From contig NZ_WUQX01000001.1 in the NCBI RefSeq assembly GCF_009830285.1, positions 2,170,501-2,234,500 on the forward strand: 64,000 bases of DNA, in the 5' to 3' direction. The stretch's first letter is position 1, and each line of letters opens with the position of its first letter. Origin of the DNA: Sporofaciens musculi (GTDB lineage Bacteria > Bacillota > Clostridia > Lachnospirales > Lachnospiraceae). Below the pieces are notes generated by a model. It saw only the letters and a program-made list of their open reading frames with translations. It ran no database searches and had not been told where the DNA came from. A program made the position numbers and the translations under genes. Below are positions 17,169-53,517 of this stretch, piece after piece.

Positions 17169-17196
17169 ATTACGAAAATGTATACTTTTTCGTAAT
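17169..17196. repeat. Inverted repeat at the left end of TnpB-like element copy 1
   Basis: ATTACGAAAA (17169-17178) pairs perfectly with TTTTCGTAAT (17187-17196) around an 8-base loop. The same ten bases occur again at 17307-17316, just before the gene, so a direct repeat brackets a segment of about 130 bases. Copy 2 has the same arrangement in slightly degenerate form. It is a candidate element end or protein-binding site. Confidence 0.6.
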
Positions 17197-17222
17197 GGTA
17201 CATTTCACATAAATTCTCAACT

Positions 17223-17251
17223 ATTCTAATATATTATCGACAAAAAGTCAA
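17223..17251 (-). promoter_or_regulatory. Predicted outward-facing promoter in the element leader
   Basis: On the minus strand TTGACT and TAGAAT are separated by exactly 17 bases, close to the sigma-70/sigma-A consensus. The promoter points leftward, away from the tnpB-like gene. It is unchanged in copy 2 (44363-44391) and in the inverted remnant at 40266. A hairpin-forming repeat (TTATCGAC, five A, GTCAATAA) at 17234-17254 overlaps the -35 box and could be an operator. Confidence 0.5.
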
Positions 17252-17349
17252 TAAACTTAATCTCTATTTTTTGTAGTATATGTCTAAATAATTTCCCATG
17301 GAAAAGATTACGAAAAAGTATACCTTACTGGACGGAGTCCGAATAAAAT

Positions 17350-18663
17350 ATGCCAACAGACAGAGTATGTAAGACCATTCATCAGTATAATAAAGAACCG
17401 ATTAAAGAGGCAGATATGGAGAAGCTTCTGGAGATTGCTAAGGATTACAAGAAGGTGAAGAACTATGTATATTCACGCTTTGGAGGTATCAATGGCTTAT
17501 CCAAGCTCTATCCAGGATATACGGTGCAGAATGAAATGACAAACAGTGGATATCGCGAAGCATTAGGGATGCCGTCAGTATACTTCTATCTGGCGATTTT
17601 CGATGCGTTGGGCGATATCAAGCTTCAGTGGACCAGAACAAAAACGAAGATTTCCAAGCTGATGAATCAGAATGAAAGCTTTACAGAGGAGGATAAGCAT
17701 TATCTGAGGTTTTTGATTAAGGTGAGCAATGGGTTTGAAGAAGTTCTGAACCAGAAAACGGTTGAACTGCCCAGGACACTACAGAAGCAGTATAGTGAAT
17801 TGGCGGCGAAAGTTGACGCAGAAAGGCTTAACCGTTATCTGTGCAGGCAGGTGAGAAAGCATCACGTAAAGCTGCATACGGACAGAGCAGACGGCTTCGC
17901 TATAGCGGAGAGGGCTTATCGTTATGCAGATCATGGAATCTATATTTCCATAAAAGAGAAACGGAAAAGAATCTTTGTACCGCTGACAGACCATAACCAG
18001 TATAAAAGTCAGCTCTATATTAAGCTATATCCAAAAGAGAGTTGCATTAAAATTAAAGTACCGGTGAATGTTGCGGTTCGCGAACATGAGGATTACAGGA
18101 ACCAGGTAGGAGTGTCGTTAGGGCTTTATACGATGCTGACAACAGATGAAGGCCATCATTATGGCGATGAGCTGGGAAGGTATCAGATTGAATATGCAGA
18201 CTGGATTCGTGAGCAGACAAGGATTTATAACCGTAACAAGAATGAGAACTGTGGAAGGAAGAAGTACTATGGAAAGAAGAAGCGCTTGGAAGAACAACTG
18301 CACAGTTACATCAATCAAGAGTTAAACCGTTTCCTAAGAGACGAGAAGCCGCGGACCGTCTATATTGTAAAGCTGCCGAAGCCCCAGGCAGGCGGCGTGA
18401 ATAAGAGGATTAATCACTCCATAACGCAGTGGCAGAGAGGCTATATCAGGAAACGCCTGGCACAGAAATGTAAGGAGCATGGGGTAGAGCTGGTACAGGT
18501 TTTGGGTAAGGAGATCAGTAATGAATGCAGCGGGTGCGGCGCAGCAGGAAAAAAGAGAGACGGATATTTTATCTGCTCAAATTGCGGCTGTCGCATAGAA
18601 GAAAAGACGAATACGGCAAGGAATGTGCTGATGAGGGGAGCGTCGGGAAAGACGGTGAATTAA
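17350..18663 (+). CDS. TnpB-like protein lacking the RuvC catalytic acids, copy 1
   Basis: A 437-residue homologue of IS200/IS605-IS607 TnpB. The zinc ribbon is intact (Cys393, Cys396, Cys409, Cys412). The RuvC landmarks can be aligned, but every catalytic acid is replaced: the RuvC-I Asp of VGIDLG is Ser256 in VGVSLGLYTML, the RuvC-II Glu is Lys341 in VYIVKLPKPQ, and the RuvC-III Asp is Lys419 in EEKTNTARNVL. The protein should therefore bind RNA and DNA but not cut. Nuclease-dead TnpB relatives (TldR) act elsewhere as RNA-guided repressors. The open frame has no internal damage, and the second copy at 44546 keeps the same replacements, so this is a maintained protein rather than a decaying transposase. 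The regulator role is inference. Confidence 0.8.
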   Translation: MPTDRVCKTIHQYNKEPIKEADMEKLLEIAKDYKKVKNYVYSRFGGINGLSKLYPGYTVQNEMTNSGYREALGMPSVYFYLAIFDALGDIKLQWTRTKTKISKLMNQNESFTEEDKHYLRFLIKVSNGFEEVLNQKTVELPRTLQKQYSELAAKVDAERLNRYLCRQVRKHHVKLHTDRADGFAIAERAYRYADHGIYISIKEKRKRIFVPLTDHNQYKSQLYIKLYPKESCIKIKVPVNVAVREHEDYRNQVGVSLGLYTMLTTDEGHHYGDELGRYQIEYADWIREQTRIYNRNKNENCGRKKYYGKKKRLEEQLHSYINQELNRFLRDEKPRTVYIVKLPKPQAGGVNKRINHSITQWQRGYIRKRLAQKCKEHGVELVQVLGKEISNECSGCGAAGKKRDGYFICSNCGCRIEEKTNTARNVLMRGASGKTVN

Positions 18664-18876
18664 GTCATAAGAACATTGATTCAGATAAATGCCGGTGATG
18701 AGCCGGAATTTTACCTGTGTGAAGTATGAGGACTGAAGAAAATGTTCCTGATATAAAAAATAATGAACGGCATTAGAAGGCAAAAATATTGCGTATTGGG
18801 TATGCCAGGACCTGGGGAACATAGGAGGCTGTGATGTACCTGGGAGCGAAGCAGAAAGAGAAGCTGCATCGTCTGT
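18664..18876 (+). ncRNA. Predicted omega-RNA/guide-RNA-like scaffold downstream of TnpB-like copy 1
   Basis: Starting directly after the stop codon, about 213 bases match copy 2 with about 11 differences, roughly 94 % by eye, while a 150-base sample of the coding region is only about 83 % identical. No open frame explains this. Possible stems are CCGG/CCGG around 18692-18706, AATGCCG (18688-18694) with CGGCATT (18768-18774), and CCAGG with CCTGG near 18808-18840. In TnpB systems the guide RNA lies exactly here, overlapping and following the 3' end of the gene. Transcription is not shown by the sequence. Confidence 0.55.
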
Positions 18877-19087
18877 TATAAAGGCAATAAGATTAAGAGG
18901 GTATGCAAGTATATCCATTTAGAGAATTGCAGGAGTGAACAGATGACCAATGTATCTTATTTAAAAATAGTGCAAGGCATTTAAAGTATATGTGCCTTAT
19001 TTATTAATATTATTTCTGTATAAAGGCGTCGGCGTCTACACAGTTATGAAGGTCAGTATGACTAATAACATATAGGGGGAGAAAAAT
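18877..19087 (+). other. Variable segment and leader before the cytidylyltransferase gene
   Basis: 18877-18941 is unrelated to the corresponding stretch of copy 2, although the flanks on both sides are nearly identical. The final shared block is 18942-18966. Further on, TATATGTGCCTTATT (about 18985-19000) resembles TATATATGCCTTATT before the gene at 46237. I see no convincing sigma-A promoter, but this stretch must contain the start signals of the operon beginning at 19088. Confidence 0.4.
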
Positions 19088-19804
19088 ATGGCAATAGCGT
19101 TAATATTTGCCGGTGGGACGGGAAAAAGAATGAATACCCGTTCAAAGCCGAAACAGTTTTTGGAGATTCACGGGAAACCAGTTATTATATATACCCTGGA
19201 ACATTTTGAATACCATGAAGGTATAGAGAGCATTTTAGTTGTCTGTGTAAAAGAATATATTGAGGAATTAAAAGGATTATTGAAACGGTTTGATATTACA
19301 AAGGTAAAGAAAATCGTTCCAGGAGGAGAGACCGGTCATGATTCAATTTATCAGGGTCTTTTGGCAATGGGAAACTTTACTCAAAAGGACGATATTGTAT
19401 TGATACATGACGGAGTACGTCCATTAATTGATGAAGAACTGATTACATTGAATATTGATACAGTAAGGAAATACGGAAATGCTATTACATGCGAAGCAGA
19501 TAAAGAGAGTCAGATAAGGAGTCTGGATGGAAGAACTGTATTCGAGATGCCGCCAAGGGAGCAGATGTATACAGCCAAGGCGCCGCAGTCATTTTATTAT
19601 GGCGCCATTAAAATGCTGTATGAGATGGCGGAGAAAGACGGGATAAAAAGCATTGATTCTGCGCAGCTTTGCAGTCTGTATCATAAGGAGTTATATATGG
19701 TGAAAAGTACCAGCAATAATATGAAAATAACAGAGCCAGCAGATTTTTATATATGTCGCGCTTTGTATGATGCACAGGAGGGACAGCAGGTATTTGGAAT
19801 ATAG
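19088..19804 (+). CDS. IspD/TarI-like cytidylyltransferase
   Basis: A 238-residue CTP:alditol or methylerythritol phosphate cytidylyltransferase. It shows IFAGGTGKRMN, PKQFLEIHGKPVI, IHDGVRPLIDEEL and TAKAPQSFYYGAI. The usual GG-x-T-R-x-x-S segment reads GGETGHDSIYQGL, with the Arg missing, as a possible sign of altered substrate. As the first gene of a glycan operon (followed by glf and galE) it more likely activates a polyol or sugar phosphate, as TarI does for ribitol-5-phosphate, than serves isoprenoid synthesis. No TarJ-type reductase is adjacent. It has an AGGGGGAG ribosome site just upstream. Confidence 0.8.
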   Translation: MAIALIFAGGTGKRMNTRSKPKQFLEIHGKPVIIYTLEHFEYHEGIESILVVCVKEYIEELKGLLKRFDITKVKKIVPGGETGHDSIYQGLLAMGNFTQKDDIVLIHDGVRPLIDEELITLNIDTVRKYGNAITCEADKESQIRSLDGRTVFEMPPREQMYTAKAPQSFYYGAIKMLYEMAEKDGIKSIDSAQLCSLYHKELYMVKSTSNNMKITEPADFYICRALYDAQEGQQVFGI

Positions 19805-19867
19805 ACAAGTACGATTTGAAAGTGACAGGAGAACCAATTATGATACAGAACTGCGAGGAAATAGAAA

Positions 19868-20998
19868 ATGTATGATTATCTTGTTGTAGGTGCAGGGCTG
19901 GCGGGAAGCGTTTTTGCCAGATTCATGACAGATAAAGGGAAAAAATGCCTTGTGATAGACAGACGGAAACATATAGCAGGGAATATATACAGTGAACAGA
20001 TGGAGGGAATAGAAGTTCACAAATACGGTCCGCATATTTTTCACACGGATAATGATAAAATATGGGAATTTGTAAATCGATTTATATCGTTTAACCATTT
20101 TATATACAGTCCATTGGCAAATTATAAAGGCGAACTTTACAATCTTCCTTTTAACATGAATACTTTCCATGAATTATGGGGTGTACGCACGCCCAAAGAA
20201 GCAAGAGAGAGAATTGAGCTTCATAAGAAGGAAAGTGGAATAAAAACACCGACCAATTTAGAGGAACAGGCAATTATGCTTGTTGGAAGGGATATTTACG
20301 AAAAGCTTGTTAGAGGATATACCGAGAAGCAATGGGGGAGACCATGCAAGGAACTTCCATCATTTATCATAAAAAGGCTTCCAGTACGGTTTACCTTTGA
20401 CAATAATTACTTTAACCATCCCTACCAGGGGATTCCAATTGGCGGATATACAAAAATGGTGGAGAAAATCCTTGCAGGGATTGAAGTTAGACTCGGAACA
20501 GATTATTTGGCAGAGAGAGCGGTATATAAAGGCGCAGCGAAAAAAATTATTTATACGGGTCCTATTGATGAATATTTTGGTTATCGTTTTGGAGAACTGG
20601 AATATAGGAGTTTGCGCTTTGAGACAGAAACGCTTGATACGGACAATTATCAGGGTGTAGCAGGGATGAATTATACAGATGCAATAATACCCTATACAAG
20701 GATTATTGAACATAAACATTTTGAATTTGGAAAAGGTAATCCGAAAAAGACAGTTATTACAAGAGAGTATTCTGAACAGTGGGAGAATGGCAAAGAGCCT
20801 TATTATCCAGTAAATGATGAGAAAAATATCAGGATATATGAAAAATATCTAAAAGAAAGCAAAAAAGATAGACATGTCATTTTTGCAGGGCGATTGGGAA
20901 AATATCAGTATTATGATATGGACAAGGTAATTGCAGACGTTTTAAAGACTGCAGAAAAAGAAGCATATTTAAATTTTGGAAATGGAGAACAGATATGA
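19868..20998 (+). CDS. glf: UDP-galactopyranose mutase
   Basis: A 376-residue FAD enzyme that interconverts UDP-galactopyranose and UDP-galactofuranose. The FAD motif is VVGAGLAGSVFA at the N-terminus; the family segments HKYGPHIFHT, YTEKQWGRP and GRLGKYQYYDMD are all present. Full length. It overlaps galE by 4 bases, so UDP-Gal made by GalE can be turned directly into UDP-Galf. This predicts galactofuranose in the surface glycan. Confidence 0.95.
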   Translation: MYDYLVVGAGLAGSVFARFMTDKGKKCLVIDRRKHIAGNIYSEQMEGIEVHKYGPHIFHTDNDKIWEFVNRFISFNHFIYSPLANYKGELYNLPFNMNTFHELWGVRTPKEARERIELHKKESGIKTPTNLEEQAIMLVGRDIYEKLVRGYTEKQWGRPCKELPSFIIKRLPVRFTFDNNYFNHPYQGIPIGGYTKMVEKILAGIEVRLGTDYLAERAVYKGAAKKIIYTGPIDEYFGYRFGELEYRSLRFETETLDTDNYQGVAGMNYTDAIIPYTRIIEHKHFEFGKGNPKKTVITREYSEQWENGKEPYYPVNDEKNIRIYEKYLKESKKDRHVIFAGRLGKYQYYDMDKVIADVLKTAEKEAYLNFGNGEQI

Positions 20999-21966
20999 TA
21001 CTTGTTACGGGCGGTGCCGGGTATATCGGCAGTCATATTAATAAAAAGCTTCATCAGAATGGGTATGGAACAGTAGTGTTTGATAATTTGGTTTATGGAC
21101 ATAGGGAAGCCGTAAAGTGGGGAACCCTGGAAGTCGGAGACTTATCGGATACAGACAAGCTGGAAGATATTTTTATGAAATACAATATAGACGCAGTGTT
21201 TCATTTTGCGGCGTATGCTTATGTAGGGGAGTCCGTCAAAAATCCACAGAAGTATTATAACAATAATGTGGTAAACACGCTGCATCTCTTAGATACAATG
21301 GTGAAATATAACGTGAAGCATTTTATTTTTTCATCAACCTGTGCAACATACGGTGTACCAGAAGAACTGCCGATAACTGAGGAAATGAAGCAAATACCTA
21401 TAAATCCTTATGGAGTATCGAAGCTGATGATTGAAAGAATATTGGAAGATTATCATAGAGCATATGAGTTGAATTATTGTTGCCTGCGTTACTTTAATGC
21501 AGCAGGGGCAGATCCTGAGAGCGAAATCGGGGAAAGTCACACACCGGAGACCCATCTGATTCCGCTGATTCTTGCTGCGGCGGCAGGGGACAGAGAGAAT
21601 ATTAGGGTATTCGGTACAGACTATCCTACAAGGGATGGAAGCTGCATAAGGGATTATATTCATGTGACAGATCTTGCTGATGCCCATGTAAAGGCGATGG
21701 ACTATTTAAAAAATGGAGGAGAAAGTACCTGTTTTAATCTTGGTAATTGTACTGGAAACTCTGTTCTGGAAGTGATAGGAGCTGCAAAAGAAATAACAGG
21801 AAAGGATATTCCTGCGGTATTTGATGAAAGGCGTCAGGGTGATCCGCCGATATTGGTTGGTAGTGCAAATAAAGCGGAAAGGGTTTTAGGGTGGAAGCCG
21901 CAGTATAGGGATATAAATACAATCATGGAACATGCATGGAAGTGGTATTGCATTAAAAGGTATTAG
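20995..21966 (+). CDS. galE: UDP-glucose 4-epimerase
   Basis: A 323-residue extended short-chain dehydrogenase with VTGGAGYIGSH at the N-terminus, the catalytic NPYGVSKLM (Tyr and Lys) and the GalE-typical RYFNAAGAD and GSCIRDYIHVTDLA. It converts UDP-glucose to UDP-galactose (or the GlcNAc/GalNAc pair) and supplies glf directly upstream, which it overlaps by four bases. Full length, with no sign of damage. Confidence 0.93.
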   Translation: MILVTGGAGYIGSHINKKLHQNGYGTVVFDNLVYGHREAVKWGTLEVGDLSDTDKLEDIFMKYNIDAVFHFAAYAYVGESVKNPQKYYNNNVVNTLHLLDTMVKYNVKHFIFSSTCATYGVPEELPITEEMKQIPINPYGVSKLMIERILEDYHRAYELNYCCLRYFNAAGADPESEIGESHTPETHLIPLILAAAAGDRENIRVFGTDYPTRDGSCIRDYIHVTDLADAHVKAMDYLKNGGESTCFNLGNCTGNSVLEVIGAAKEITGKDIPAVFDERRQGDPPILVGSANKAERVLGWKPQYRDINTIMEHAWKWYCIKRY

Positions 21967-21971
21967 AGTAA

Positions 21972-23057
21972 ATGGTATATCAAGAATTAATAGATAACTT
22001 CAATAAATTAGATTCAATATATCTTTATGGCGCAGGGGTGGTAGCTTACGGTGCGTATAAGGCGATACAGGAACTTTTTGGAATAAAAGTAAATGGATTT
22101 TTGGTGACAGACAAGGATAATCAGTTGGAGCGAATTGATGATATACCGATTCATGCATTTAAAGAAATGCAGATAGGAAATGACAATTTGATCATGATTG
22201 CCACGCCAGAAGAATATCATGACAGCATCGAACAGGCATTACAGAAACAGGGAATTTTAAATTATATTAAGCTGGATTCCCATATGGAATATGTTCTGAT
22301 GGGTAAGTATATGAAAAAGGTTTGCGGACTCAAGCTGATAGAAGATTATCAGACATACGAGATAGATACTTTCACGTCCATAGGCATATATAAAGTAGTC
22401 AGCCATATGGACAGAAAATTAATCAGAGCATATAGAGAAGCATCCTGGATAAAAGAAATTCAAGTGGGAACTGTCCTGACAAAGGAAAGGCTCGCGGACA
22501 TTACGGACGAAAGATGTGGTAGCCTTTCAGAACAAAATGCGTTATATGGGGAATTGTCAGCAACTTATTATGCATGGAAGTATGGCATATATGATGTGAC
22601 AGGAATATTTCATTACCGGAGGATTCTTAAGGTTACTGGAGAACAGATGCAGTTGCTGAAAGACAGAAAGATAGATGTAATATTGCCGTTGCCATTTGTT
22701 TGTTATCCTGATGCATCAGGTCAATACAGAAGATATCTTCTGCAGGCTGATATTGACATTATGCTGGAAGTAATAAAAGAACGGGATAGAGAGCATTTTA
22801 AAGAAATATTGGATATTTTGAAAATACCTTATCTGTATAATTATAATATGTTGATTGCAAGAAAAGAGGTATTTGATGATTATTGCAGTTGGTTGTTCCC
22901 GATTTTAAAAGAGACGGCATATCGGTGCGAGATGCAAAGGGAAAAACGTCTGTCAAGATATATTGGCAGAATAGGAGAGGTGTTGACATCTCTGTATTTT
23001 ATGCAAAATATGAAGAAATGGAAGATTGCTCATGCTGAAAAGATATGGAGGGTGTGA
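21972..23057 (+). CDS. DUF4422 glycan-synthesis protein with N-terminal Rossmann-like module
   Basis: A 361-residue protein with the same architecture as the one at 13017. The Rossmann-like module is at about residues 15-110 (IYLYGAGVVAYGAY, later IMIATPEEYH), and the DUF4422 domain at about 150-361 has ELSATYYAWKYG, GIFHYRR (in place of GLCHYRR) and YNYNMLIARKEVFDDYC. It starts 5 bases after galE and ends 3 bases before the next DUF4422 gene, so it belongs to the galactofuranose operon and is probably one of its transferases; the sugar specificity is unknown. Confidence 0.78.
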   Translation: MVYQELIDNFNKLDSIYLYGAGVVAYGAYKAIQELFGIKVNGFLVTDKDNQLERIDDIPIHAFKEMQIGNDNLIMIATPEEYHDSIEQALQKQGILNYIKLDSHMEYVLMGKYMKKVCGLKLIEDYQTYEIDTFTSIGIYKVVSHMDRKLIRAYREASWIKEIQVGTVLTKERLADITDERCGSLSEQNALYGELSATYYAWKYGIYDVTGIFHYRRILKVTGEQMQLLKDRKIDVILPLPFVCYPDASGQYRRYLLQADIDIMLEVIKERDREHFKEILDILKIPYLYNYNMLIARKEVFDDYCSWLFPILKETAYRCEMQREKRLSRYIGRIGEVLTSLYFMQNMKKWKIAHAEKIWRV

Positions 23058-23060
23058 GGA

Positions 23061-24377
23061 ATGGAGATGGGAAATACGATATTTAACAAGAAAATAGTAA
23101 AAAAACGTGTAATCATTTATGGTGCGCATCTTGTGGCAAGTGAAGTGTATCAGTGTTTACGGAAACACAGGCCAGACATCAAAGTCGAGACATTTGCGGT
23201 CACAGATGTGGAAGATAATCCGGATGTTTTAGAGGGAATAGTTGTTAAGAGAATTTCAGATTTGGAGGCTCATCCGTATCCATATATATTGATTGCTATG
23301 CCGGAAAAATATCATGAAGAAGCGATTCGCACACTTGAAACTCTGGGCTTTATGGACTTTGAAAAAATTGGCTTGAAGAAGGTTTCAATTTTAAAGGGAA
23401 AAGACATGATACAGGATATAAATAAAAACAGTAAGAAGTTTTTTCTTGCAGAAAGTTTATATGATTATAGTTGGCTGGATATTTTTGAAAAAGATGGATT
23501 TGGAAATAAAAAAGAGGATAGGCATTACAAATTTACGATTCTGACTAGACTGTCAGATACGGGGTTGCTGGAAAAATTGGAAAAACTAGATTTTAGGAAA
23601 GATTACGAGAGGCTTCTTGGTCCGTATCTCAGTCTGGAACAATTAGAAACAGCCGACGACAAAAGTATTGGTCTGGACGAGAGCCATGTGGCTGTTTATA
23701 TGGTAACTTGTCAAAAGGATAAGGCGCTTAAAGCAAAATATCAGCCATATCGGTATGTACATCCTTTGCAGGCTGGGGCGGTATTGGTTGATATACAAAG
23801 AACACGATTGGCAGACGATATGGGAGAGAATATCTCAGAGAAAAATATGTCGTTTGCAGAAATGACAGCTATGTACTGGATTTGGAAGAATGCACCGTCC
23901 ACGAAGTATAAAGGATTGTGTCATTATCGCAGACATTTTGTGATGAATGAGAAACAAGCAGAGGAATTAGAACGAAACAATATTGACGTGGTACTTACTA
24001 CTCCCAGACTTGTATTGAATGGGATAAAGGAAATGTTTCTTTCTGATACGCCGGTAAAGGAGGATGTATTTGAGAATATGATGAATTCGCTGCAAGATAT
24101 GGCGGGGAACACGTATGCGGATTATGCAAAAAGGTACTTTGACGGTTTCTTTTATTATCCTAATAATATGTTAATTGCAAAAGAAAAGATATTTAATGAC
24201 TATTGCAATTGGATTTTTTCAATTTTGTTTTGTATGGAACAAAATGATTTAAAAAATCATGTTGTTAAAAATGACAGGCATATTGCTTTTGCAGCAGAGC
24301 TTTTAACGTCTTTGTATTTTTCCTTTCATAAGGATGATTTAAAAATTGCTGTGACAGATTATCTTTTTTTAGAATAG
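23061..24377 (+). CDS. DUF4422 glycan-synthesis protein with N-terminal Rossmann-like module, longer variant
   Basis: A 438-residue relative of the preceding gene. Residues about 12-110 are the Rossmann-like module (VIIYGAHLVASEVY), about 115-225 are an insert not found in the two shorter relatives, and about 226-438 are the DUF4422 domain with FAEMTAMYWIWKN, KGLCHYRRHF and YYPNNMLIAKEKIFNDYC. A good GGAGGGTGTGAGG ribosome site precedes ATG 23061. The tandem with 21972 suggests two successive transfer steps. Confidence 0.77.
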   Translation: MEMGNTIFNKKIVKKRVIIYGAHLVASEVYQCLRKHRPDIKVETFAVTDVEDNPDVLEGIVVKRISDLEAHPYPYILIAMPEKYHEEAIRTLETLGFMDFEKIGLKKVSILKGKDMIQDINKNSKKFFLAESLYDYSWLDIFEKDGFGNKKEDRHYKFTILTRLSDTGLLEKLEKLDFRKDYERLLGPYLSLEQLETADDKSIGLDESHVAVYMVTCQKDKALKAKYQPYRYVHPLQAGAVLVDIQRTRLADDMGENISEKNMSFAEMTAMYWIWKNAPSTKYKGLCHYRRHFVMNEKQAEELERNNIDVVLTTPRLVLNGIKEMFLSDTPVKEDVFENMMNSLQDMAGNTYADYAKRYFDGFFYYPNNMLIAKEKIFNDYCNWIFSILFCMEQNDLKNHVVKNDRHIAFAAELLTSLYFSFHKDDLKIAVTDYLFLE

Positions 24378-24468
24378 GGCAGATTCTGTTTCAGGTCTGG
24401 AATAAGAAAGGTCTTTGGATTGTGGTAATAAAATATAAATTTTGACGTCATAAACAGAAGGGGTAGAA

Positions 24469-25752
24469 ATGAATATTTGTGTAACGGTTAATTCAAAATA
24501 TATGAAATATACATACGTTATGTTGCAGTCGTTATATGAGAATAATGAGAGAGGGAGTATTGAGCTGTATGTATTACAGAGGGATTTTACTCCAGAGGAT
24601 AAAGAAGCGATAAAAGATATTTCAGTGAAATATGATAATCGGGTACATTTTGTTTGGATGGATCCAGAACAGTTTAATACAATGCCAATAAACCTAATTG
24701 AAGGAACCACTCTTTCGATGGAAATATTTTTTCGTTTGCTGATACCAGAGGTCTTTCCAATGCTGGACAAGGTATTGATGCTGGATGTAGATATTGTAAT
24801 TAATGGAAGCTTGAAAGAGCTGTATGATATGGATTTGGATGGCGTCTGCCTGGCTGCTGCGCCTAATTTATGTACAGGGCAGCAAGTTCCTGTAAGCTTC
24901 CGCTCCTGGTATCCAAAGAGCAGAACCAGGTGGACTCATTTTAATACAGGCATACTTTTGTGGAATTTGAAATATTTCAGGGAGAATTATCCCAGAGAAT
25001 ATATTTTTAAACAAGCGCAAACAAAAAAGATCGAAACCATGGCTTTTGAAGAGGAACTGTTCAATGTATTGTTTGGAGAAGACAAAATTTTGGAATTAGA
25101 TCCGCTTAAATGGAACTATATTACAACGTATGAAGATATTTTTCGTGGAAAGTTCCGTCACCATCTGGAAGAAACAAAGGAAGAACTGCGCAGGAAGCAT
25201 ACAGTCATTCATTTTTTGGCGAGCAATCCCTGGGGTACCGGATTCAAAAATGATAGTTACCGTCTGTGGTGGGAGTACGCAGAGAGAACACCGTATTATC
25301 ATAATTTGTGTAAAGAACAGATTGAGAGAATGGAGTTTGGCCAGTCAAAAGAAAAAATATCTTTGGAATATAAAACGACTGTTCTTGAGAAATTGTTTCG
25401 GTTGAAAGGAACCGGCGAATTAGAAGAAATTATCAGAAAAAGGGGGATTCAGTATATTTATTTGTATGGGGCGGGAGTAATGGCGGAATTGTTTTATGCC
25501 GCATTATGTGCGGAGCAGGCTCAGAATTATGTTGCAGGCGTTTATGATAAGAGAAAGCAAGGTAAATTTCAAGACATGTCTATTGAATATCCAGACGCTA
25601 AATCATTTCAGAACATAGAAGATCTCCATGAAGATAAAGAGATCATTGTCCTTGTCACACCATCCTATGAAGCGGATGAAATAAAAGAAGAATTACTTAA
25701 AAGAATGCAGGGACGGCTAGAGGTGCTTACATTAAAAAACTTGTTGGAATAA
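24469..25752 (+). CDS. GT8 family glycosyltransferase with C-terminal Rossmann-like module
   Basis: A 427-residue protein. The N-terminal 280 residues are a GT8 retaining glycosyltransferase: NICVTVNSKYMKYTYVML at the start, the DxD metal site MLDVDIVING near residue 108, and HFNTGILLWNL. Around residue 325 the Rossmann-like module begins (IYLYGAGVMAELFYAA) and runs to the end. The gene is a close paralogue of 29348. No membrane span, so it is likely a cytosolic or membrane-associated enzyme using a UDP-sugar. Confidence 0.82.
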   Translation: MNICVTVNSKYMKYTYVMLQSLYENNERGSIELYVLQRDFTPEDKEAIKDISVKYDNRVHFVWMDPEQFNTMPINLIEGTTLSMEIFFRLLIPEVFPMLDKVLMLDVDIVINGSLKELYDMDLDGVCLAAAPNLCTGQQVPVSFRSWYPKSRTRWTHFNTGILLWNLKYFRENYPREYIFKQAQTKKIETMAFEEELFNVLFGEDKILELDPLKWNYITTYEDIFRGKFRHHLEETKEELRRKHTVIHFLASNPWGTGFKNDSYRLWWEYAERTPYYHNLCKEQIERMEFGQSKEKISLEYKTTVLEKLFRLKGTGELEEIIRKRGIQYIYLYGAGVMAELFYAALCAEQAQNYVAGVYDKRKQGKFQDMSIEYPDAKSFQNIEDLHEDKEIIVLVTPSYEADEIKEELLKRMQGRLEVLTLKNLLE

Positions 25753-40243: not shown

Positions 40244-40345
40244 ATAAATATAGAGATTAAGTTTATTGACTTTTTGTCGATAATATATTAGAATGAACGG
40301 GAATTTATTTAAGATATATCATCATAGGAATGTATACTCTAATGG
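40244..40345 (-). repeat. Inverted, degenerate remnant of the TnpB-element left end
   Basis: 46 bases (about 40249-40294) are the exact reverse complement of the leader core shared by the two TnpB-like elements (17222-17270, 44362-44410). Weaker similarity (GAATTTATTT, GTATAC) continues to about 40345. There is no gene or 3' scaffold, so this is an orphan end in the opposite orientation, showing a third element once lay here or that ends recombined. Confidence 0.75.
40266..40294 (+). promoter_or_regulatory. Predicted promoter carried by the orphan element end
   Basis: TTGACT (40266-40271) and TAGAAT (40289-40294) with a 17-base spacer. Because the end is inverted here, the promoter points rightward into the fragment region and towards the gene at 40852. 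The box is identical in all three element ends. Confidence 0.5.
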
Positions 40346-40499
40346 ATGAAATCTCCCTGGCTGCCTATATATGGAATGCAGACAGCATGTGATACCAGTC
40401 TGATTTTAATTAAAAGCAGGTTTGTAAATATTAGCAATGTGTTTTACGGGTAATGAGCCAGGGAAGCTCCATTTAGAGATAGATTTAAATCTAAAAGTA

Positions 40500-40845
40500 T
40501 ATATATAATATTATATAATGATGGATGTATTGAAATAAATAAGCTTAGTAAAGATTGGAATCAGTCCAGTCGGGATATTTTTAACTTTGTTCGTGCAATT
40601 TGCAGGCCGGGACCTCAGGCAACCTCCTTCATTCGCGGAGAAAAGATATTAATTAATAAGGTTAAAATAGTAGAAGGCGCCCATCCTTACAAGAATACAG
40701 TGGGGCAAGTAGTTGGAAAAAGTGAAAAGGGATTTTTTGTAAATACTTAGGATACTATAGTAGAGGTTATAGAATATACCTATAACGGAAATTTGCAGAA
40801 TGGTATTGATCTAAAAAAGAAATTTTATGACTTGGATATAGGATA
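40500..40845 (+). pseudogene. C-terminal remnant of a sugar N-formyltransferase-like gene
   Basis: From about 40522 a frame reads DGCIEINKLSKDWNQSSRDI, then NFVRAICRPGPQATSFIRG and KKKFYDLDIG, the C-terminal domain of the methionyl-tRNA formyltransferase family (compare AIYNLVRALAKPYVGAHF in the gene at 41202). A TAG at 40748-40750 interrupts it, and there is no N-terminal half. It lies directly before another formyltransferase gene, so two related genes were once in tandem. Confidence 0.7.
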
Positions 40846-40851
40846 AAGACG

Positions 40852-44302: not shown

Positions 44303-44362
44303 AAAGACGTTACGGAAAAGTATACTTTTTCGTAATGGTACATTTAAAATAAATTCTCAACC

Positions 44363-44391
44363 ATTCTAATATATTATCGACAAAAAGTCAA
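44363..44391 (-). promoter_or_regulatory. Predicted outward-facing promoter, copy 2
   Basis: Same TTGACT, 17-base spacer and TAGAAT on the minus strand as in copy 1, with the overlapping hairpin repeat unchanged. It would transcribe leftward across the ABC remnant and into the ornithine cyclodeaminase remnant, which has the same orientation. Confidence 0.48.
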
Positions 44392-44545
44392 TAAACTTAA
44401 TCTCTATTTTTTGTAGTATATGTCTAAAAAATTTTCCATAAAAATCATTACGAAAATGTATACCTTAATGGACGCAGTCCGCCCGCCCCGCTAGGGGCAT
44501 GGATTACGGGATGCCCTTTGGGTATATCTTATTGGACGGAATCAT

Positions 44546-45859
44546 ATGCCAGTAGACAAAGTATGTAAAACCATTCATCAGTATAGTAAAGAACCGCTCA
44601 AAGAAGCAGATATGCAGAAGCTTTTAGAGATTGCCGAGGATTACAAAAAGGTGAAAAACTATGTATATTCACGCTTCGGAGGACTCCATAGCCTGTCAAA
44701 GCTCTATCCGGGCTACACGGTGCAGAATGAAATGACGGCCAGCGGTTACCGCGAAACATTAGGGATGCCGTCAGTCTACTTCTATCTGGCGATTTTTGAT
44801 GCATTGGGTGAGATTAAGAGCCAGTGGACCAGGACAAAATCGAAGCTAACGAAGCTGATTAACCAGAATAAAGGCTTTACGGAGGAAGATAAACATTATC
44901 TGCGGTTTTTGCTTAAGGTTAGCAGCGCATTTGAAGAAGTTTTAAATCAGAGGCCGGTTGAACTGCCCAAGGCGCTGCAGAAACAGTATCTTGAAGTGGC
45001 GGCGAAGGTTGATACAAAAAAGCTTCACCGTTATCTGTGCAGGCAGGTGAGAAAGCATCACGTAAAGCTGCATACGGACAGAGCAGACGGTTTTGCCATA
45101 GCAGAGAGAGCGTATCGCTATGGGGATCATGGAGTCTATATTTCCGTAAAAGAAAAGCGGAAACGAGTCTTTGTACTGCTGACAGATAATAACCGTTATA
45201 AGAGCCAGCTCTATATCAAGCTGTATCCGAAAGAGAGCAGTATCACCATCAAGGTACCGGTAAATGTCGCGGTCCGCGAACATGCAGATTATCGGAAGCA
45301 GGTAGGGGTTTCAGCAGGGGTTTACACGATGCTGACGACAGATGAAGGCCGTCGTTATGGTGAGGAGTTGGGCAGATATCAGATTGAATACGCAGACTGG
45401 ATTCGTGAGCAGACGAGGATATATAACCGTAACAGGAATGAGAATCCCGGAAGGAAGAAGTACAATGCGAAGAAGAAGCGTCTGGAGGAACACCTGCACA
45501 GCTATATCAATCAGGAATTGAACCGCTTCTTAAGAGAAGAAAAGCCACAGGCCGTTTACATTGTAAAGCTGCCTAAGCCCCAGGCAGGGGGTGTGAATAA
45601 GAAGATTAACCATTCCATGGCACAGTGGCAGAGGGGATATATCCGAAAACGCCTGATGCAGAAATGTAAGGAACAGTCGATAGAGCTGATACAGGTTCTA
45701 GGTAAAGATATCAGTAAAGAATGCAGCGGGTGCGGCCAGGTAGGAAAAAAGAAGGAGGGGTATTTTATCTGCTCTAATTGCGGCTGCCGTATAGAAGAAA
45801 AGACGAATACAGCAAGGAATGTGCTGATGAGGGGAAGGTCTGGAAGGACGGTGAAATAG
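44546..45859 (+). CDS. TnpB-like protein lacking the RuvC catalytic acids, copy 2
   Basis: 437 residues, exactly the length of copy 1. Many codon changes are silent and the frame is intact, which points to selection on the protein. The zinc ribbon CSGCG/CSNCG is kept. The RuvC positions are again non-acidic: Ser256 in VGVSAGVYTML, Lys341 in VYIVKLPKPQ and Lys419 in EEKTNTARNVL. Independent loss in both copies is less likely than an inactive common ancestor. The gene precedes the glycan block beginning at 46237, as copy 1 precedes the block at 19088. Confidence 0.8.
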   Translation: MPVDKVCKTIHQYSKEPLKEADMQKLLEIAEDYKKVKNYVYSRFGGLHSLSKLYPGYTVQNEMTASGYRETLGMPSVYFYLAIFDALGEIKSQWTRTKSKLTKLINQNKGFTEEDKHYLRFLLKVSSAFEEVLNQRPVELPKALQKQYLEVAAKVDTKKLHRYLCRQVRKHHVKLHTDRADGFAIAERAYRYGDHGVYISVKEKRKRVFVLLTDNNRYKSQLYIKLYPKESSITIKVPVNVAVREHADYRKQVGVSAGVYTMLTTDEGRRYGEELGRYQIEYADWIREQTRIYNRNRNENPGRKKYNAKKKRLEEHLHSYINQELNRFLREEKPQAVYIVKLPKPQAGGVNKKINHSMAQWQRGYIRKRLMQKCKEQSIELIQVLGKDISKECSGCGQVGKKKEGYFICSNCGCRIEEKTNTARNVLMRGRSGRTVK

Positions 45860-46072
45860 GTCATAAGAACATTGATTCAGATAAATGCCGGCGATGAGCC
45901 GGGATTTTACCTGTATAGAGTAAGAGGACTGAAGAAGATGTTCCTGATATAAAAAAATAATGAACGGCATTAGAAGGCAAAGAGATTGCGTATTGGGTAT
46001 GCCAGGACCTGGGGAACATGGGAGGCTGTGATGTACCTGGGAGCGAAGCAGAATATATCTGCATCATCTGTT
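45860..46072 (+). ncRNA. Predicted omega-RNA/guide-RNA-like scaffold downstream of TnpB-like copy 2
   Basis: Counterpart of 18664-18876 with the same overall length. Changes between copies avoid the proposed stems CCGG/CCGG, AATGCCG/CGGCATT and CCAGG/CCTGG. The scaffold ends with GCAGA-ATATA-TCTGC followed by ATCATCTG; in copy 1 the hairpin loop differs but GCAG/CTGC still pair, as expected for a structured RNA. Confidence 0.55.
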
Positions 46073-46236
46073 TTTTGGTAGTTGTCCAGGAGACATGAAT
46101 TGTGTCTGGTTGGAGATTATTGTAAGAGAGAATAGATGACCAATGTACCTTATTTAATAATTTATAAATCGTTTTCACAATGAAAGTAGTTTGTTATATA
46201 TGCCTTATTATATAACATAAACAGGAGTCTGATGAT
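46073..46236 (+). promoter_or_regulatory. Variable segment, element end and possible promoter for the second glycan block
   Basis: 46073-46133 differs from the same position in copy 1. After the end block, TTCACA (46174-46179), a 17-base spacer and TATATG (46197-46202) form a weak sigma-A-type promoter. It overlaps a palindrome-like TTATATA...TATATAA at about 46193-46214. AGGAG at 46222-46227 serves the ATG at 46237. Confidence 0.4.
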
Positions 46237-47760
46237 ATGAATTATATTATTGTGCAGGCAGGGGGCAAGGGTACCCGCCTGAAGCATTTAACTGAAAATA
46301 AACCGAAAGCGCTTGTTCCTGTAGGGAATCTGCCGATGCTGTTCTATCTGTTTGGCAGGTATCCGGATAAGCGTTTTGTTATCATAGCAGATTATAAGAA
46401 GGAAGTCATGCACGAATATCTGGAAGCGTTTGCGGCTGTAAAATACCAGATCGTGGACGCAGCAGGGACAGGCACATGCGCAGGAATAAGGCAGGCGGCA
46501 GATTTAATTCCGGACGGAGAGCCTTTCCTGCTGGTATGGTCGGATTTGATACTCCCGGCAGACCTGAAGATGCCAGAGGGATACGATGCCAGCGGAATAA
46601 ATACAACGCTGCAAAAGGATTACATAGGTGTCTCGCAGACATTTCCCTGCCGCTGGTCGTACAGGAATGGACGGTTTATAGAAGAAAGCAGCCTGGAATA
46701 CGGCGTGGCAGGTTTTTTTCTTTTTACGGAAAAAGCAAAGATAGCGGATGTGCCGGAAAGCGGGGAACTGGTACGCTGGATGCAGGGAAGGCAGATGGAA
46801 TTTGAAAAATTCGGGCTTGCAGGGACAAGAGAGTTTGGCTTAATAGAGGAATATGAGAAATTAGAAACCGAAAAATGCCGCCCGTTCAACCGTATAACCA
46901 TAAAGGAAAACCGGGTTATCAAGGAAGGCATTGATGAACAGGGTAAGCGGCTGGCAGCAAGGGAATGTGCATGGTATGGGAAGGCAAAGCAGTTAGGCGT
47001 TAAAGCATTGCCAGAGATATATTCAGTAAACCCCTTAGAAATGGAGCGCATCAATGGGAAAAACATTTACGAATACCAGCCTGCATATGGACAAAAGCAG
47101 GAGATTTTACTGAAGCTGACAGATGCTCTAAAACAGCTTCATGCCTCTGAAAAAATTCCGGCAGACAGCTTTAGCTTAAGGGAGTCATATTTCAACAAGA
47201 CCTTTGAACGGATCATAAAAATCAGGGATTTAGTGCCGTTTGCCAATGAGAAGATCATTGCGGTAAACGGAAGGAAATGCAGGAATGTATTTTTCCATAA
47301 AAGAGAGCTGGAAGAAAAACTGGCAGGGCTGTCTTGTAATAATTTTTGTTTTATCCACGGTGACTGTACCTTTTCAAACCTGATGCTGCGGGAGGACGGA
47401 AGCCCCGTTCTGATTGATCCGAGGGGATATTTTGGTTACAAGGAGCTGTATGGTGATCCGCTGTATGACTGGGCGAAACTGTATTATTCCATTGTCGGAA
47501 ATTATGACCAGTTTAACCTGAAGCGGTTCCGGCTCTCCATCGGGCAGGACGCAGAGGAGGGCGTAGGGCTTCAGATTGAATCGAACCATTGGGAGGATAT
47601 GGAAGCAGACTTCTTTGCAATGACAGGAACGAAACCAGAGGAGATCAGGCTGCTCCATGGGGTTATCTGGCTGTCACTGACAACATATGCGTGGCAGGAC
47701 TATGATTCGATATGCGGCGCATTTTACAACGGGCTATATTATCTGGAGGAAGTGTTATGA
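46237..47760 (+). CDS. Bifunctional nucleotidyltransferase and APH/choline-kinase-like sugar kinase
   Basis: A 507-residue fusion. Residues about 1-215 are an NTP-transferase (IIVQAGGKGTRLKHLTENK, acidic site WSDLILP). Residues about 220-507 are a kinase of the aminoglycoside/choline kinase fold, with the catalytic loop FIHGDCTFSNLM (HxDxxxxN) followed by LIDPRGYFG in place of the usual DFE-like metal motif. Such an arrangement phosphorylates a sugar or alcohol and activates it as a nucleotide conjugate. The next gene, a SIS isomerase, overlaps the stop (ATGA), so the three activities form one sugar-activation pathway of unknown product. Confidence 0.8.
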   Translation: MNYIIVQAGGKGTRLKHLTENKPKALVPVGNLPMLFYLFGRYPDKRFVIIADYKKEVMHEYLEAFAAVKYQIVDAAGTGTCAGIRQAADLIPDGEPFLLVWSDLILPADLKMPEGYDASGINTTLQKDYIGVSQTFPCRWSYRNGRFIEESSLEYGVAGFFLFTEKAKIADVPESGELVRWMQGRQMEFEKFGLAGTREFGLIEEYEKLETEKCRPFNRITIKENRVIKEGIDEQGKRLAARECAWYGKAKQLGVKALPEIYSVNPLEMERINGKNIYEYQPAYGQKQEILLKLTDALKQLHASEKIPADSFSLRESYFNKTFERIIKIRDLVPFANEKIIAVNGRKCRNVFFHKRELEEKLAGLSCNNFCFIHGDCTFSNLMLREDGSPVLIDPRGYFGYKELYGDPLYDWAKLYYSIVGNYDQFNLKRFRLSIGQDAEEGVGLQIESNHWEDMEADFFAMTGTKPEEIRLLHGVIWLSLTTYAWQDYDSICGAFYNGLYYLEEVL

Positions 47761-48335
47761 CAACATACTTTGAACGGCAATTAAAGGAATTTGACCACGC
47801 TATCCATTCTATGGATATGGAACTGTTTGAACGGTGGGTAAAGGAAGGGGCAGAAACCTTAAAAAACGGGCATAAAATTATTGCCTCCGGCTTAGGAAAG
47901 AATGTTCCCGTCTGCGAGAAATTCGTGGGTTCTATGCAGTCGCTTGGGCTAGAGGCATGTTTCCTCAACACCAACTCTGCCGTGCATGGCGATATGGGCG
48001 TAGTAAAGGAAGGGGATATGGTGATTATCCTTACAAAAAGCGGGGAAACGGAGGAATCCATTTACCTTGCAAGGCTTTTACAGGAGAGAAATGTGGATAT
48101 GTGGCTCCTGACTTTTAATAAGGACAGCATACTCACATGCGAGATTCCTAATAGTGTCGTGCTGGATTTACGGCACGAAGGGGATATGTGGAACATCATG
48201 CCAAACAACTCCACGACGCTGAATCTGATTGTGTTGCAGGGGTTGGTGATGAAGATGGCCTCGACACTGGAGATCCCGATTGAGGATTTTAGGAAGAACC
48301 ATCCGGGAGGGGCGATCGGACAGAAATTGAGGTGA
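47757..48335 (+). CDS. SIS-domain sugar-phosphate isomerase (KpsF/GutQ-like core)
   Basis: A 192-residue single SIS domain: IIASGLGKNVPVCEKF, NTNSAVHGDMGVV (the T/S-x-x-A-x-HGD feature of arabinose-5-phosphate isomerases), VIILTKSGETEE and a C-terminal HPGGAIGQKL, a KpsF/GutQ hallmark. The CBS pair usually attached to KpsF is absent. ATG 47757 overlaps the preceding stop and has GGAGGA upstream. It probably makes a ketose or aldose phosphate for the kinase/nucleotidyltransferase. Confidence 0.82.
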   Translation: MTTYFERQLKEFDHAIHSMDMELFERWVKEGAETLKNGHKIIASGLGKNVPVCEKFVGSMQSLGLEACFLNTNSAVHGDMGVVKEGDMVIILTKSGETEESIYLARLLQERNVDMWLLTFNKDSILTCEIPNSVVLDLRHEGDMWNIMPNNSTTLNLIVLQGLVMKMASTLEIPIEDFRKNHPGGAIGQKLR

Positions 48336-48812
48336 ATGGCTATTATGGAATGGCTGATTTGTGCATGGCAGGGAAGGAATATCTGGAGAAGGCTAAAAAT
48401 AAAATATCGGATTAACTATGACTGTGTTGTAATCATTCTGACAGAGCAGGATGAGGAATGGAATAAAACGGCGTTAAAGTATCTTCCAGATTATATGAAA
48501 CGAAAGAGCGCTAAAAAAGCCTTGGTATTTTATACGGAAAATTGCACATTAAAATATTTGGAGCCTTATATGACAGACAATATTCAGACGTTCAAAATGA
48601 AAGAACTGCAAGTACGGCGATTGCTCCGCTATTATTGCCTATATCGTTTCTTTGACAATGTTGTTTTCTTTTCATTGGAAGAACCGAAGGACAATAATAG
48701 CAGGGAGATTCTGTCCCATGAGGAAATCACGAAAGAGGAATTGATATGTCTGGGGTTTTATTGTTTGCGGTGTGTTCCGGACGGCAAAGCGGAGGGAACG
48801 GTCTATGTATGA
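48336..48812 (+). CDS. Uncharacterised small protein
   Basis: 158 residues, soluble, with no domain that I recognise. A strand-like IINYDCVVIILTEQDEEW-type segment near residue 30 and a paired 'ALVFYTENCTLKYLEPY' suggest an alpha/beta fold. It starts at once after the SIS isomerase stop and overlaps the next gene by eight bases, so it is co-translated with the glycan block. Confidence 0.5.
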   Translation: MAIMEWLICAWQGRNIWRRLKIKYRINYDCVVIILTEQDEEWNKTALKYLPDYMKRKSAKKALVFYTENCTLKYLEPYMTDNIQTFKMKELQVRRLLRYYCLYRFFDNVVFFSLEEPKDNNSREILSHEEITKEELICLGFYCLRCVPDGKAEGTVYV

Positions 48813-50106
48813 ATATGAGTGGAAGCTTGTAAAAAAAACGGTGCAAAAGTACGTAGAAACGAAACAAGGACATGGTTCCCTGCATACCCCCGTTTACGTT
48901 TTCGGCGTCAGTGAGCGGACATATCACATCATAAGGGAATTGTCATGGAAGGGAATCAAAGTGAAAGGTGTGCTCGACAATGACAGAAAAAAGCAGGGAA
49001 TGCATTGCTGCGGGATTCCGGTTGTATCAGTGAATGCAATCGAAAAGGAAGGAAAATCCAGAGTGGATGTTTTCATCATGTCCCCATTTTGGCGGGAAAT
49101 GGAAAAACAGCTTATGGAAACAGGCTTACAAAAACGACACATATATGTGATTAAAGCTATCAAGAGAATTCAAACGGTCTTTGTTATGAGGAGTCTACAT
49201 GTCCATATGGGGAAAGCGGTTTATGGAGCGATCAGGAAGAAGTATGGCATCAACGCAAAAATATTTCTCTGCCCCTATACAGGAACGGGTGATATTTACC
49301 TGATCGGGACATTTTTGCAGCAATATATCAGACAAAAGCAAATAGAAAATTACGTGCTTGTTGTTGTCAGTACAGCCTGTAAAAAAGTTGCGGATTTGTT
49401 TGATATAAAAAATATTGAACAGCTTCCTTCCACGGATGTCTGTTCAAGGCTTATTTCCTATTATATGGCGGAACCAGAGCAATGTGATATGGAAATCCTT
49501 AATGACAGTTGGGGAGAAATCTATACAAATCCAACACAGTGGATTCGGGGATATAAGGGACATAATTTTACGGAGATGTTCCGAAAATATGTGTTTCGGC
49601 TTTCGGATGATACAATGCCGCAGCCACCAACATTGAAAAATGCGGACGATCAGATAGACAGAATTTTCACAGGGCAAGGGCTTGTTAGGGGAAAAACCGT
49701 TATCCTCTCTCCTTATGCAATGACTCTTGCGAATTTGCCGAATCCCTTTTGGGAGGAGCTCGTAGTGGCTCTGCAAAAAAAAGGGTATTCTGTATGCACC
49801 AATAGCTGCGGGGAAAAAGAACCTGCCATAGCGGGAACAGATGCAGTTTTTTTCCCATTGAATATTGCCCCGCAAGTGGTGGAGGCAGCGGGAACATTTG
49901 TCGGTGTCAGGAGCGGATTCTGCGATGTGATAAGCCGTGCGAAAGCGAGAAAGGTGATTCTATATGATAAAAATAATTGGTTTTATAATTGCAGCGCATA
50001 TAAATATTTCAGCTTGAATGACATGGGACTGTGCAATGACGCGGTTGAGCTGGAATATGAGGAGGATTTTCAAAGGCTGTGCACTGAAATCATAAATTTA
50101 TTTTAA
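48805..50106 (+). CDS. GT-B-like (heptosyltransferase-like) protein with N-terminal Rossmann-like module
   Basis: 433 residues. The module is at about 27-115 (VYVFGVSERTYHIIREL, VKGVLDNDRKKQG). The remaining 300 residues look like a GT9-type GT-B enzyme: IFLCPYTGTGDIYLI at the start, VILSPYAMTLANLP mid-way, and near the end EAAGTFVGVRSGFCDVIS, resembling the donor-binding 'G-x-R/D-S-G' loop. The paralogues at 57365 and 59082 (decayed) share this order. ATG 48805 has GGAGGG at 48791-48796. The sugar specificity is unknown. Confidence 0.65.
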   Translation: MYEYEWKLVKKTVQKYVETKQGHGSLHTPVYVFGVSERTYHIIRELSWKGIKVKGVLDNDRKKQGMHCCGIPVVSVNAIEKEGKSRVDVFIMSPFWREMEKQLMETGLQKRHIYVIKAIKRIQTVFVMRSLHVHMGKAVYGAIRKKYGINAKIFLCPYTGTGDIYLIGTFLQQYIRQKQIENYVLVVVSTACKKVADLFDIKNIEQLPSTDVCSRLISYYMAEPEQCDMEILNDSWGEIYTNPTQWIRGYKGHNFTEMFRKYVFRLSDDTMPQPPTLKNADDQIDRIFTGQGLVRGKTVILSPYAMTLANLPNPFWEELVVALQKKGYSVCTNSCGEKEPAIAGTDAVFFPLNIAPQVVEAAGTFVGVRSGFCDVISRAKARKVILYDKNNWFYNCSAYKYFSLNDMGLCNDAVELEYEEDFQRLCTEIINLF

Positions 50107-50123
50107 AACGGAGGAATGGGTGA

Positions 50124-51326: not shown

Positions 51327-51341
51327 TTTGGAGGGATATCT

Positions 51342-52145: not shown

Positions 52146-52172
52146 AGTCTTAATAGTTTGGGAGGAAAACAC

Positions 52173-53081: not shown

Positions 53082-53092
53082 GAGGGATAAGG

Positions 53093-53483
53093 ATGATATC
53101 TGAAAATTTTCATTTTATGCGTAATACAGAGGAGAATTTTATCTCCTGTGTACGGGGGGGGGAATAAAAAACTTGTCTTGTTTGGGGCAGGATATGAAAT
53201 GTCGCAGGCTATGAAAAAAATCATATTGCCGAATTGCTTGGAGGTATCTTATGCAGTTGACAATGATTTTCGTAAATGGTATGCAAGATATTTTGGCATC
53301 AGGATATGCGAGCCGAATAGGCTGGCAACAGAAAATGCGGAGCAGACAGTTGTCCTAATTACAAGTAGGTATCCTTTCCGTATTGAGGAGCAGTTGGAAG
53401 GGATGGGAATCAGTCATTATTATTCCAGTTTCCTTTTTCTGGAAGAGTATATTGGGGAGCATCAGTTTATGGTTACTTTTTAG
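53093..53483 (+). CDS. Stand-alone Rossmann-like module, out of frame at a G9 tract (candidate phase-variable gene)
   Basis: GGAGGG at 53081-53086 is ideally placed for ATG 53093, which opens MISENFHFMRNTEENFISCV and then enters nine G. With nine G the frame stops at 53213. With eight (or eleven) it continues as RGGNKKLVLFGAGYEMSQA and encodes a 129-residue protein ending at 53483, a lone copy of the island's module with the same lead-in as 53518 (GRKLVLFGAG). The GTG at 53148 could start the module with nine G, but it lacks a ribosome site and sits behind a hairpin (AGGAGA/TCTCCT, 53130-53147). Confidence 0.65.
53154..53162 (+). repeat. G9 homopolymer tract
   Basis: Nine consecutive G in an AT-rich region, inside the coding start of the module gene. 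Such tracts change length by slipped-strand mispairing and switch genes on and off in many surface-glycan loci. Confidence 0.8.
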
Positions 53484-53517
53484 TGATTGAATTAGTGTGA
53501 ATAAGGAAGGTATTAAA

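Follow-up and report, generated by a model that had tools for sequence, protein, structure and literature searches.

We propose that, in gut Lachnospiraceae, the choice of surface coat may be made by a nuclease-dead relative of the transposon protein TnpB acting through RNA guides. The gene occurs twice in the stretch analyzed here, 64,000 nucleotides (nt) of the Sporofaciens musculi genome (contig NZ_WUQX01000001.1, positions 2,170,501 to 2,234,500; hereafter "the window," numbered from its first nucleotide). As read from sequence, it belongs to a module that comprises, in order, at about half of the loci an invertible promoter, then the dead tnpB, a covarying RNA, in a subset of loci a DNA site in the leader, and an operon for surface glycan or secreted protein. 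A first-pass annotation of the window had proposed RNA-guided control of glycan genes by this protein. That idea is partly supported, in that the loss of the catalytic acids under selection, a covarying 3′ RNA, glycan operons, and a leader motif all argue for it, while the regulation itself is putative. The annotation missed the invertible promoter, the RNA itself, the leader sites, and the presence of seven copies in the genome.

The two 437-amino-acid (aa) frames are intact, as had been reported, and the proteins they encode are 83% identical. Both pass the cut-off of the Pfam family Cas12f1-like_TNB (33 and 31.5 bits; cut-off, 26.3) and match NCBIfam guided_TnpB with E values of 6e-10 and 9e-11, yet under its curated score cut-off. 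Structure prediction and alignment, which the annotation had suggested as a check, agree with its assignment. An AlphaFold2 model with 36 aligned relatives as input (mean predicted local distance difference test score, 85.5; predicted template-modeling [TM] score, 0.66) indicates that the dead protein has the TnpB/Cas12f fold, and Cas12f and TnpB structures are its closest Foldseek matches (e.g., 8h1j, TnpB-omegaRNA-DNA; target TM-score, 0.68). In the alignment to the closest relatives that retain the D-E-D triad (loci L245 and L246; motifs GIDKG, MEQL/MENL, and DTNA), the RuvC-I, -II, and -III acids fall on S256, V340, and K419; the first and third had been placed correctly, and the second had been put one residue off, at K341. 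None of columns 256, 340, 341, and 419 is acidic in any of 79 full-length relatives: column 256 holds A (51), S (27), or Y (1); column 340 holds V (38), P (29), A (8), M (2), T (1), or I (1); column 341 holds K (68), R (10), or G (1); and column 419 holds K (72), R (6), or S (1). The four cysteines of the zinc ribbon, a motif that the annotation had described as preserved, are present in all 79.

The ratio of nonsynonymous to synonymous divergence (dN/dS) is 0.07 to 0.16 in 10 of 12 pairs, dS being nonfinite in the remaining two. This is purifying selection, and the loss of the acids is therefore not decay, as had been argued from the window alone. Broken or partial tnpB copies, which are not part of the 79, do occur elsewhere, and calling the gene invariably intact would overstate the case. 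Thus, the family has the TnpB-type fold and sequence of a TldR (TnpB-like nuclease-dead repressor) and, like TldRs, has lost its RuvC residues while remaining under selection; the D-E-D triad that would mark an active IS200/IS605 or IS607 TnpB is absent.

The two copies in the window are real, but they undercount the family. The S. musculi genome carries seven full copies (48 to 100% identical to copy 1), all without the RuvC acids, and one N-terminal fragment (L008). The search for orthologues that had been suggested yielded a merged set of 80 distinct loci in 36 genomes, including one locus clipped at a contig end (L216); 37 loci come from named Lachnospiraceae genomes. Within the genus, 9 of 12 genomes matched at an E value of 0.001, and we count eight of these as real because the match in G008 consists of 24 residues with stops. 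In the family, 18 of 397 genomes were positive at an E value of <1e-30, S. musculi among them; in the class, 4 of 391 were positive at 1e-20, two of which (G607 and G766) hold D-E-D relatives from outside the family. Since at most four candidates per genome were scored in the family and class searches, copy numbers from these are lower bounds, and full-length counts omit broken, partial, and contig-cut copies (e.g., G071, G207, G293, G381, G420, and L216). One S. musculi copy (L010, at C2:2158400) is a mosaic, its N-terminal part resembling L011 and the remainder L009, which suggests gene conversion between modules.

Six of the seven S. musculi copies are preceded by a block that is more conserved than tnpB itself and holds a sigma70-like promoter flanked by near-palindromic inverted repeats. 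At zero or one mismatch, the genome contains 21 occurrences of the repeat word TTACGAAAAAGTATAC, always at the six inverton copies or at fragment L008; only these hits were used, as a search at two mismatches did no better than its control (30 versus 21). The promoter core, allowing three mismatches, occurs eight times, compared with none in the control, and always at the module or its remnants: six cores point away from an intact tnpB, one points toward fragment L008, and one lies at a decayed locus in the window (position 40263). The inverton is thus found at six of seven full copies and two decayed loci, and all of the intact inverton modules of this genome read OFF; the two forward promoters are at loci that lack an intact tnpB. 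Across the 77 loci with sufficient upstream sequence, 38 have the promoter core (33 directed away from the gene and 5 toward it), and inverted repeats flank 34 of these 38. Loci L018 and L019 share an operon (97.7% identity over 3.9 kb) and carry the promoter segment in opposite orientations. Both orientations of a promoter set between inverted repeats are therefore seen across loci. The sole S. musculi copy without an inverton (L015, at C2:927904) has a consensus promoter upstream (TTGACA-17-TATAAT), and a tyrosine recombinase gene about 1 kb away is the integrase match nearest to any module.

Directly after the tnpB stop codon begins a predicted RNA, which closes in a guide-like tail, ATRTRYYTTATTWAA. 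Of the 37 pairs that RNAalifold predicts from 33 sequences, 25 are supported by compensatory double changes. In 13 genomes, a covariance model of the RNA gave 57 matches at 52 loci, each adjoining tnpB or what remains of it; the RNA of G377:C4, at first sight an orphan, turned out to adjoin a truncated tnpB. In the window, the model finds the two RNAs and a third match of 15 bits, which is taken as chance, and Rfam gave no match at its gathering score, with two matches far under that score when E values up to 5 were admitted. Sequence and covariation thus point to an adjacent guide RNA with a conserved scaffold, as in TldRs. Tails are readable in 76 of the 80 loci (the RNA is lost in L141, partial in L155, and cut in L222 and L230); they are 12 to 16 nt long, and their conservation, ACCAAT-RTRYYTTATT, runs through about nt 16, after which the sequence is random. 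A pseudoknot between scaffold GGTAT and tail RTRYY was unsupported by eye on A2, where the GGATA variants (L045, L152, and L231) retain C at position 4, and an RNAalifold pairing of scaffold GGCAT with the tail (A5) was replaced by a structure that leaves the tail unpaired. In L004 (1041-1240) and L005 (1094-1249), the RNA region contains 57-bp near-perfect tandem repeats that look like repeated hairpins.

The guide motif recurs as DNA. Before the first surface gene, the leader site AAGTWTAT+RTRYYWTATT repeats it, with 26 occurrences in 75 leaders (21 loci) versus 0.2 in dinucleotide shuffles (200 shuffles; largest, 2). All 26 candidate sites are on the sense strand, and none is on the other; they lie 26 to 203 nt downstream of the guide and belong to the same unit. 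Elsewhere, the motif occurs twice in the upstream sequence (50 kb) and 13 times in the operon sequence (259 kb), where some occurrences are coding look-alikes; five loci (L033, L042, L046, L142, and L148) have sites farther downstream, at about 725 nt, that were dropped as such (a VYVPYY-type motif, by eye). The whole 5.76-Mb genome has four occurrences of TWTATRTGCCTTA: three are in module leaders, and the fourth lies between other genes. Locus L141 has a full dead tnpB and has lost its RNA but retains the leader site ATATCTTATT; in guide-site matching, it contributed a site but no guide. The L037 site, a poor match, is counted among the 26 and was dropped from guide-site matching and from the tallies by guide type given below.

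Whose guide does a site match? TldRs are RNA-guided repressors with a seed of nt 1 to 6 (PMC13418256). Over 10 nt, none of 25 guide-site pairs from the same locus is exact, and 21 of the 25 have at least two mismatches in the first six positions; the mean cis mismatch is 2.84, compared with 2.36 after shuffling of the guides within the site-bearing set (P = 0.006, uncorrected for phylogeny). In S. musculi, three of the four site loci match a sibling guide exactly: L012, L014, and L015 carry guides that fit the sites of L009 and L010, and the L013 site in turn fits the guides of L009 and L010; the L011 site is one mismatch off. In the window, the copy 1 site is identical over 10 nt to the guides of siblings L012, L014, and L015 and has two mismatches to its own guide, and the copy 2 site has one mismatch to the siblings' GTGCC guides and two to its own.

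In total, these observations are consistent with a TldR-like RNA-guided repressor that would act at leader sites, mainly those of siblings, in phase-variable surface operons, a reading to which we give an even chance. In the proposed mechanism, a TnpB ancestor would have lost its nuclease and survived as a DNA-binding protein guided by RNA, placed in front of phase-variable surface operons. Flipping of the promoter to ON would give a transcript that yields both the protein and its guide RNA; the complex would read the AAGTWTAT flank as its target-adjacent motif, bind guide-matching leader sites, mostly those of sibling operons, and block RNA polymerase ahead of the first surface gene. The complex's own tnpB-RNA unit, lying upstream of the site, would stay unaffected. 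The expected outcome is a restricted choice of the surface structure made.

Several observations weigh against this proposal. Only 20 of the 76 guide-bearing loci carry a recognizable leader site, and 56 do not. The search for matches to RNA 3′ ends that the annotation had suggested did find the tail motif recurring in leaders, but an exact sibling guide exists in the same genome for only 6 of 23 sites, compared with a permutation mean of 4.7 (P = 0.27); because this is not above permutation, exclusion in trans stays a hypothesis. Likewise, the lack of exact cis pairs is, taken alone, nonsignificant (permutation mean, 1.7; P = 0.15). The promoter was unrecognized at 39 of the 77 loci, 12 of which also pass a loose inverted-repeat test. 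The L019 assembly may be faulty, since its promoter region contains an N and a palindromic duplication. Finally, no dedicated recombinase was found in a search for the integrase family PF00589 alone (31 matches), which did not extend to serine recombinases.

Could the dead TnpB instead act on RNA? It might act in cis, binding the structured RNA within the nascent transcript of its operon, and serve in antitermination or processing, with no DNA target, in a role like that of UpxY without homology to it. The RNA and the gene do sit in the leaders of long surface operons, nearly always paired, and a protein of this kind would account for the many loci without a recognizable DNA site and for the absence of any exact cis match. 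We nevertheless consider it unlikely, as it leaves unexplained both the conservation of the tail to about nt 16 and the one-strand repetition of the tail motif with a fixed flank. Moreover, module and operon are separable: despite their nearly identical operons, L018 and L019 differ in tnpB with a dS of 0.72, and the module seems, from these sequences, to have been exchanged separately from its operon. If DNA is the target, does each complex act as a feedback brake by binding the leader site of its own locus? Guide and site do lie close together in one unit, and in L027, L030, L038, and one L134 site, a single C/T difference at position 5 is the sole cis mismatch over 10 nt. The absence of any exact cis pair, the two or more mismatches that most pairs have in the first six positions, and the excess of mismatches over shuffled guides make such autorepression quite improbable. 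A remnant domesticated for a role that does not involve DNA, or a selfish module that spreads between operons without regulating them, would fit the mosaic and broken copies but is very improbable given the low dN/dS in a protein without a nuclease, the RNA covariation, and the location of the sites inside the host operon.

Returning to RNA-guided repression of siblings, can the guides form a hierarchy? GTGCC is the commonest guide, and none of the 24 loci that carry it has a site, versus 20 of 52 others (P = 1.6e-4; post hoc, uncorrected for shared ancestry); among promoter-bearing loci only, the counts are 0 of 14 versus 16 of 23 (P = 2e-5; post hoc, uncorrected for phylogeny). This pattern is a possible hierarchy and not proof of one. 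We speculate, tentatively and with more doubt than confidence, that the loci form an allelic-exclusion network in which the guide of each ON operon would silence lower-tier siblings through their leader sites, mismatches would protect its own operon, and GTGCC loci would be the top tier.

Table 1. Module components, candidate sites, and operons in the window
Feature	Position	Strand	Remarks
Left inverted repeat, copy 1	17170..17198	.	Near-palindrome TTACGAAAATGTATACTTTTTCGTAATGG
Sigma70-like promoter, copy 1	17223..17251	-	TTGAC-TAGAAT; directed away from gene (OFF)
Right inverted repeat, copy 1	17307..17324	.	
Nuclease-dead TnpB homologue, copy 1	17350..18663	+	437 aa; S256, V340/K341, K419
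Predicted structured RNA, copy 1	18664..18965	+	omegaRNA-like scaffold and guide-like 3′ tail; covariance model, 172.6 bits
Guide-like tail, copy 1	18950..18966	+	AT-GTATCTTATTTAAAA
Candidate target site, copy 1	18984..19007	+	AAGTATAT+GTGCCTTATTTATTAA
Glycan operon after copy 1 (stretch examined)	19088..25752	+	IspD-like, UDP-galactopyranose mutase, epimerase, two DUF4422 proteins, GT8
Third promoter core, decayed locus	40263..40295	+	Toward formyltransferase-like/DUF4422 remnant; right repeat decayed
Site-like motif, leader of decayed locus	40498..40512	+	TATATATATAATATT
Left inverted repeat, copy 2	44310..44338	.	
Promoter, copy 2	44363..44391	-	Directed away from gene (OFF)
Right inverted repeat, copy 2	44447..44464	.	
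Nuclease-dead TnpB homologue, copy 2	44546..45859	+	437-aa frame
Predicted structured RNA with guide-like tail, copy 2	45860..46158	+	Covariance model, 185.4 bits
Guide-like tail, copy 2	46143..46160	+	AT-GTACCTTATTTAATAA
Candidate target site, copy 2	46195..46215	+	TATAT+ATGCCTTATTATATAA; flank GTTATAT in place of AAGTATAT
Glycan-type operon after copy 2 (stretch examined)	46237..54693	+	Nucleotidyltransferase-phosphotransferase, SIS, radical SAM, aldo/keto reductase, FkbM methyltransferase

As had been stated, each of the two copies in the window is followed by a glycan operon, whose genes are now identified (Table 1). Over 71 first downstream genes, Pfam assigns 11 to NTP transferase, 6 to IspD, and 4 to DegT aminotransferase (the families overlap). 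A further type, at least 32% identical to its L022 member, accounts for 17 of the 71, and the module therefore serves surface structures generally and not glycans alone. In the examples of this second operon type that we read (L022:8008-9615, L030:7770-9420, and others), an approximately 175-aa protein with one transmembrane segment and no Pfam match is followed by a secreted protein with a signal peptide. Window positions 40263 to 42233 are, to judge from the sequence, a third and worn copy of the module, in which neither a tnpB nor a covariance-model match was found. In L008 (1350-1640) and L016, the promoter faces a tnpB of which just the first codons remain, fused to the guide end of the RNA; in the operon that follows, a short DegT-like piece comes before pyruvyl transferase, glycosyltransferase, and RgpF domains. 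An AAA-ATPase-like/PD-(D/E)XK gene (15081-16781) immediately precedes copy 1.

If our proposal is true, a transposon-derived RNA-guided protein would be part of the switch that chooses the surface glycan of a gut commensal, and promoter inversion and RNA-guided repression would be combined in one module. It would also be a natural multiguide repressor network whose guides and sites can be read, making coat choice in Lachnospiraceae, for which no mechanism is described in the literature searched, directly testable. That literature, on TnpB in relation to capsular polysaccharide, phase variation, or inactivation and on invertible promoters in Lachnospiraceae, likewise contained no description of the module; the founding TldR paper, reportedly published in Nature in 2024, was outside its scope and may mention the clade.

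How does the module compare with known systems? Its closest D-E-D relatives in the class sample, L245 (7747-9138) and L246 (8345-9733), are active TnpB elements of two other Clostridia, 27 to 33% identical to the members compared. They differ in having intact acids and in looking mobile, the two lying in an element 82 to 86% shared, which may be IStron-like, its 5′ part resembling a group I intron, although Rfam gave no confirmation. The element terminates in AGAACCAG just before nonhomologous flanks, resembling the GACCAAT scaffold end of the dead module; as the scaffold position scores 12.7 bits, under an unrelated match of 16.8 bits, homology of the scaffolds is suggested but not shown. Cas12m, also RuvC inactive, is a DNA-binding effector of type V that can form a transcription roadblock (PMC11013384); there, the guides come from a CRISPR array and the role is in defense. 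The Bacteroides UpxY/UpxZ regulators also head phase-variable capsule operons with invertible promoters, and UpxZ represses nonadjacent capsule operons (PMC7315117); however, they work by protein-based interference with antitermination, with neither TnpB nor a guide RNA.

The closest published parallel is the csrA-associated TldRs of Oscillibacter/Flavonifractor, which occur with hin invertons (PMC13418256). Like the module described here, they combine a RuvC-dead TnpB with a 3′ guide RNA and linkage to host surface genes, and they are multicopy, with promoter inversions of about 120 bp upstream; their guides are cross-targeting, as those of the present module may be. Neither csrA nor hin is among the 20 window proteins scanned with Pfam. 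The partner described there is flagellin, whereas here it is a glycan or secreted-protein operon, and the candidate sites of the S. musculi module and its relatives lie in leaders of the operon family to which the module itself belongs.
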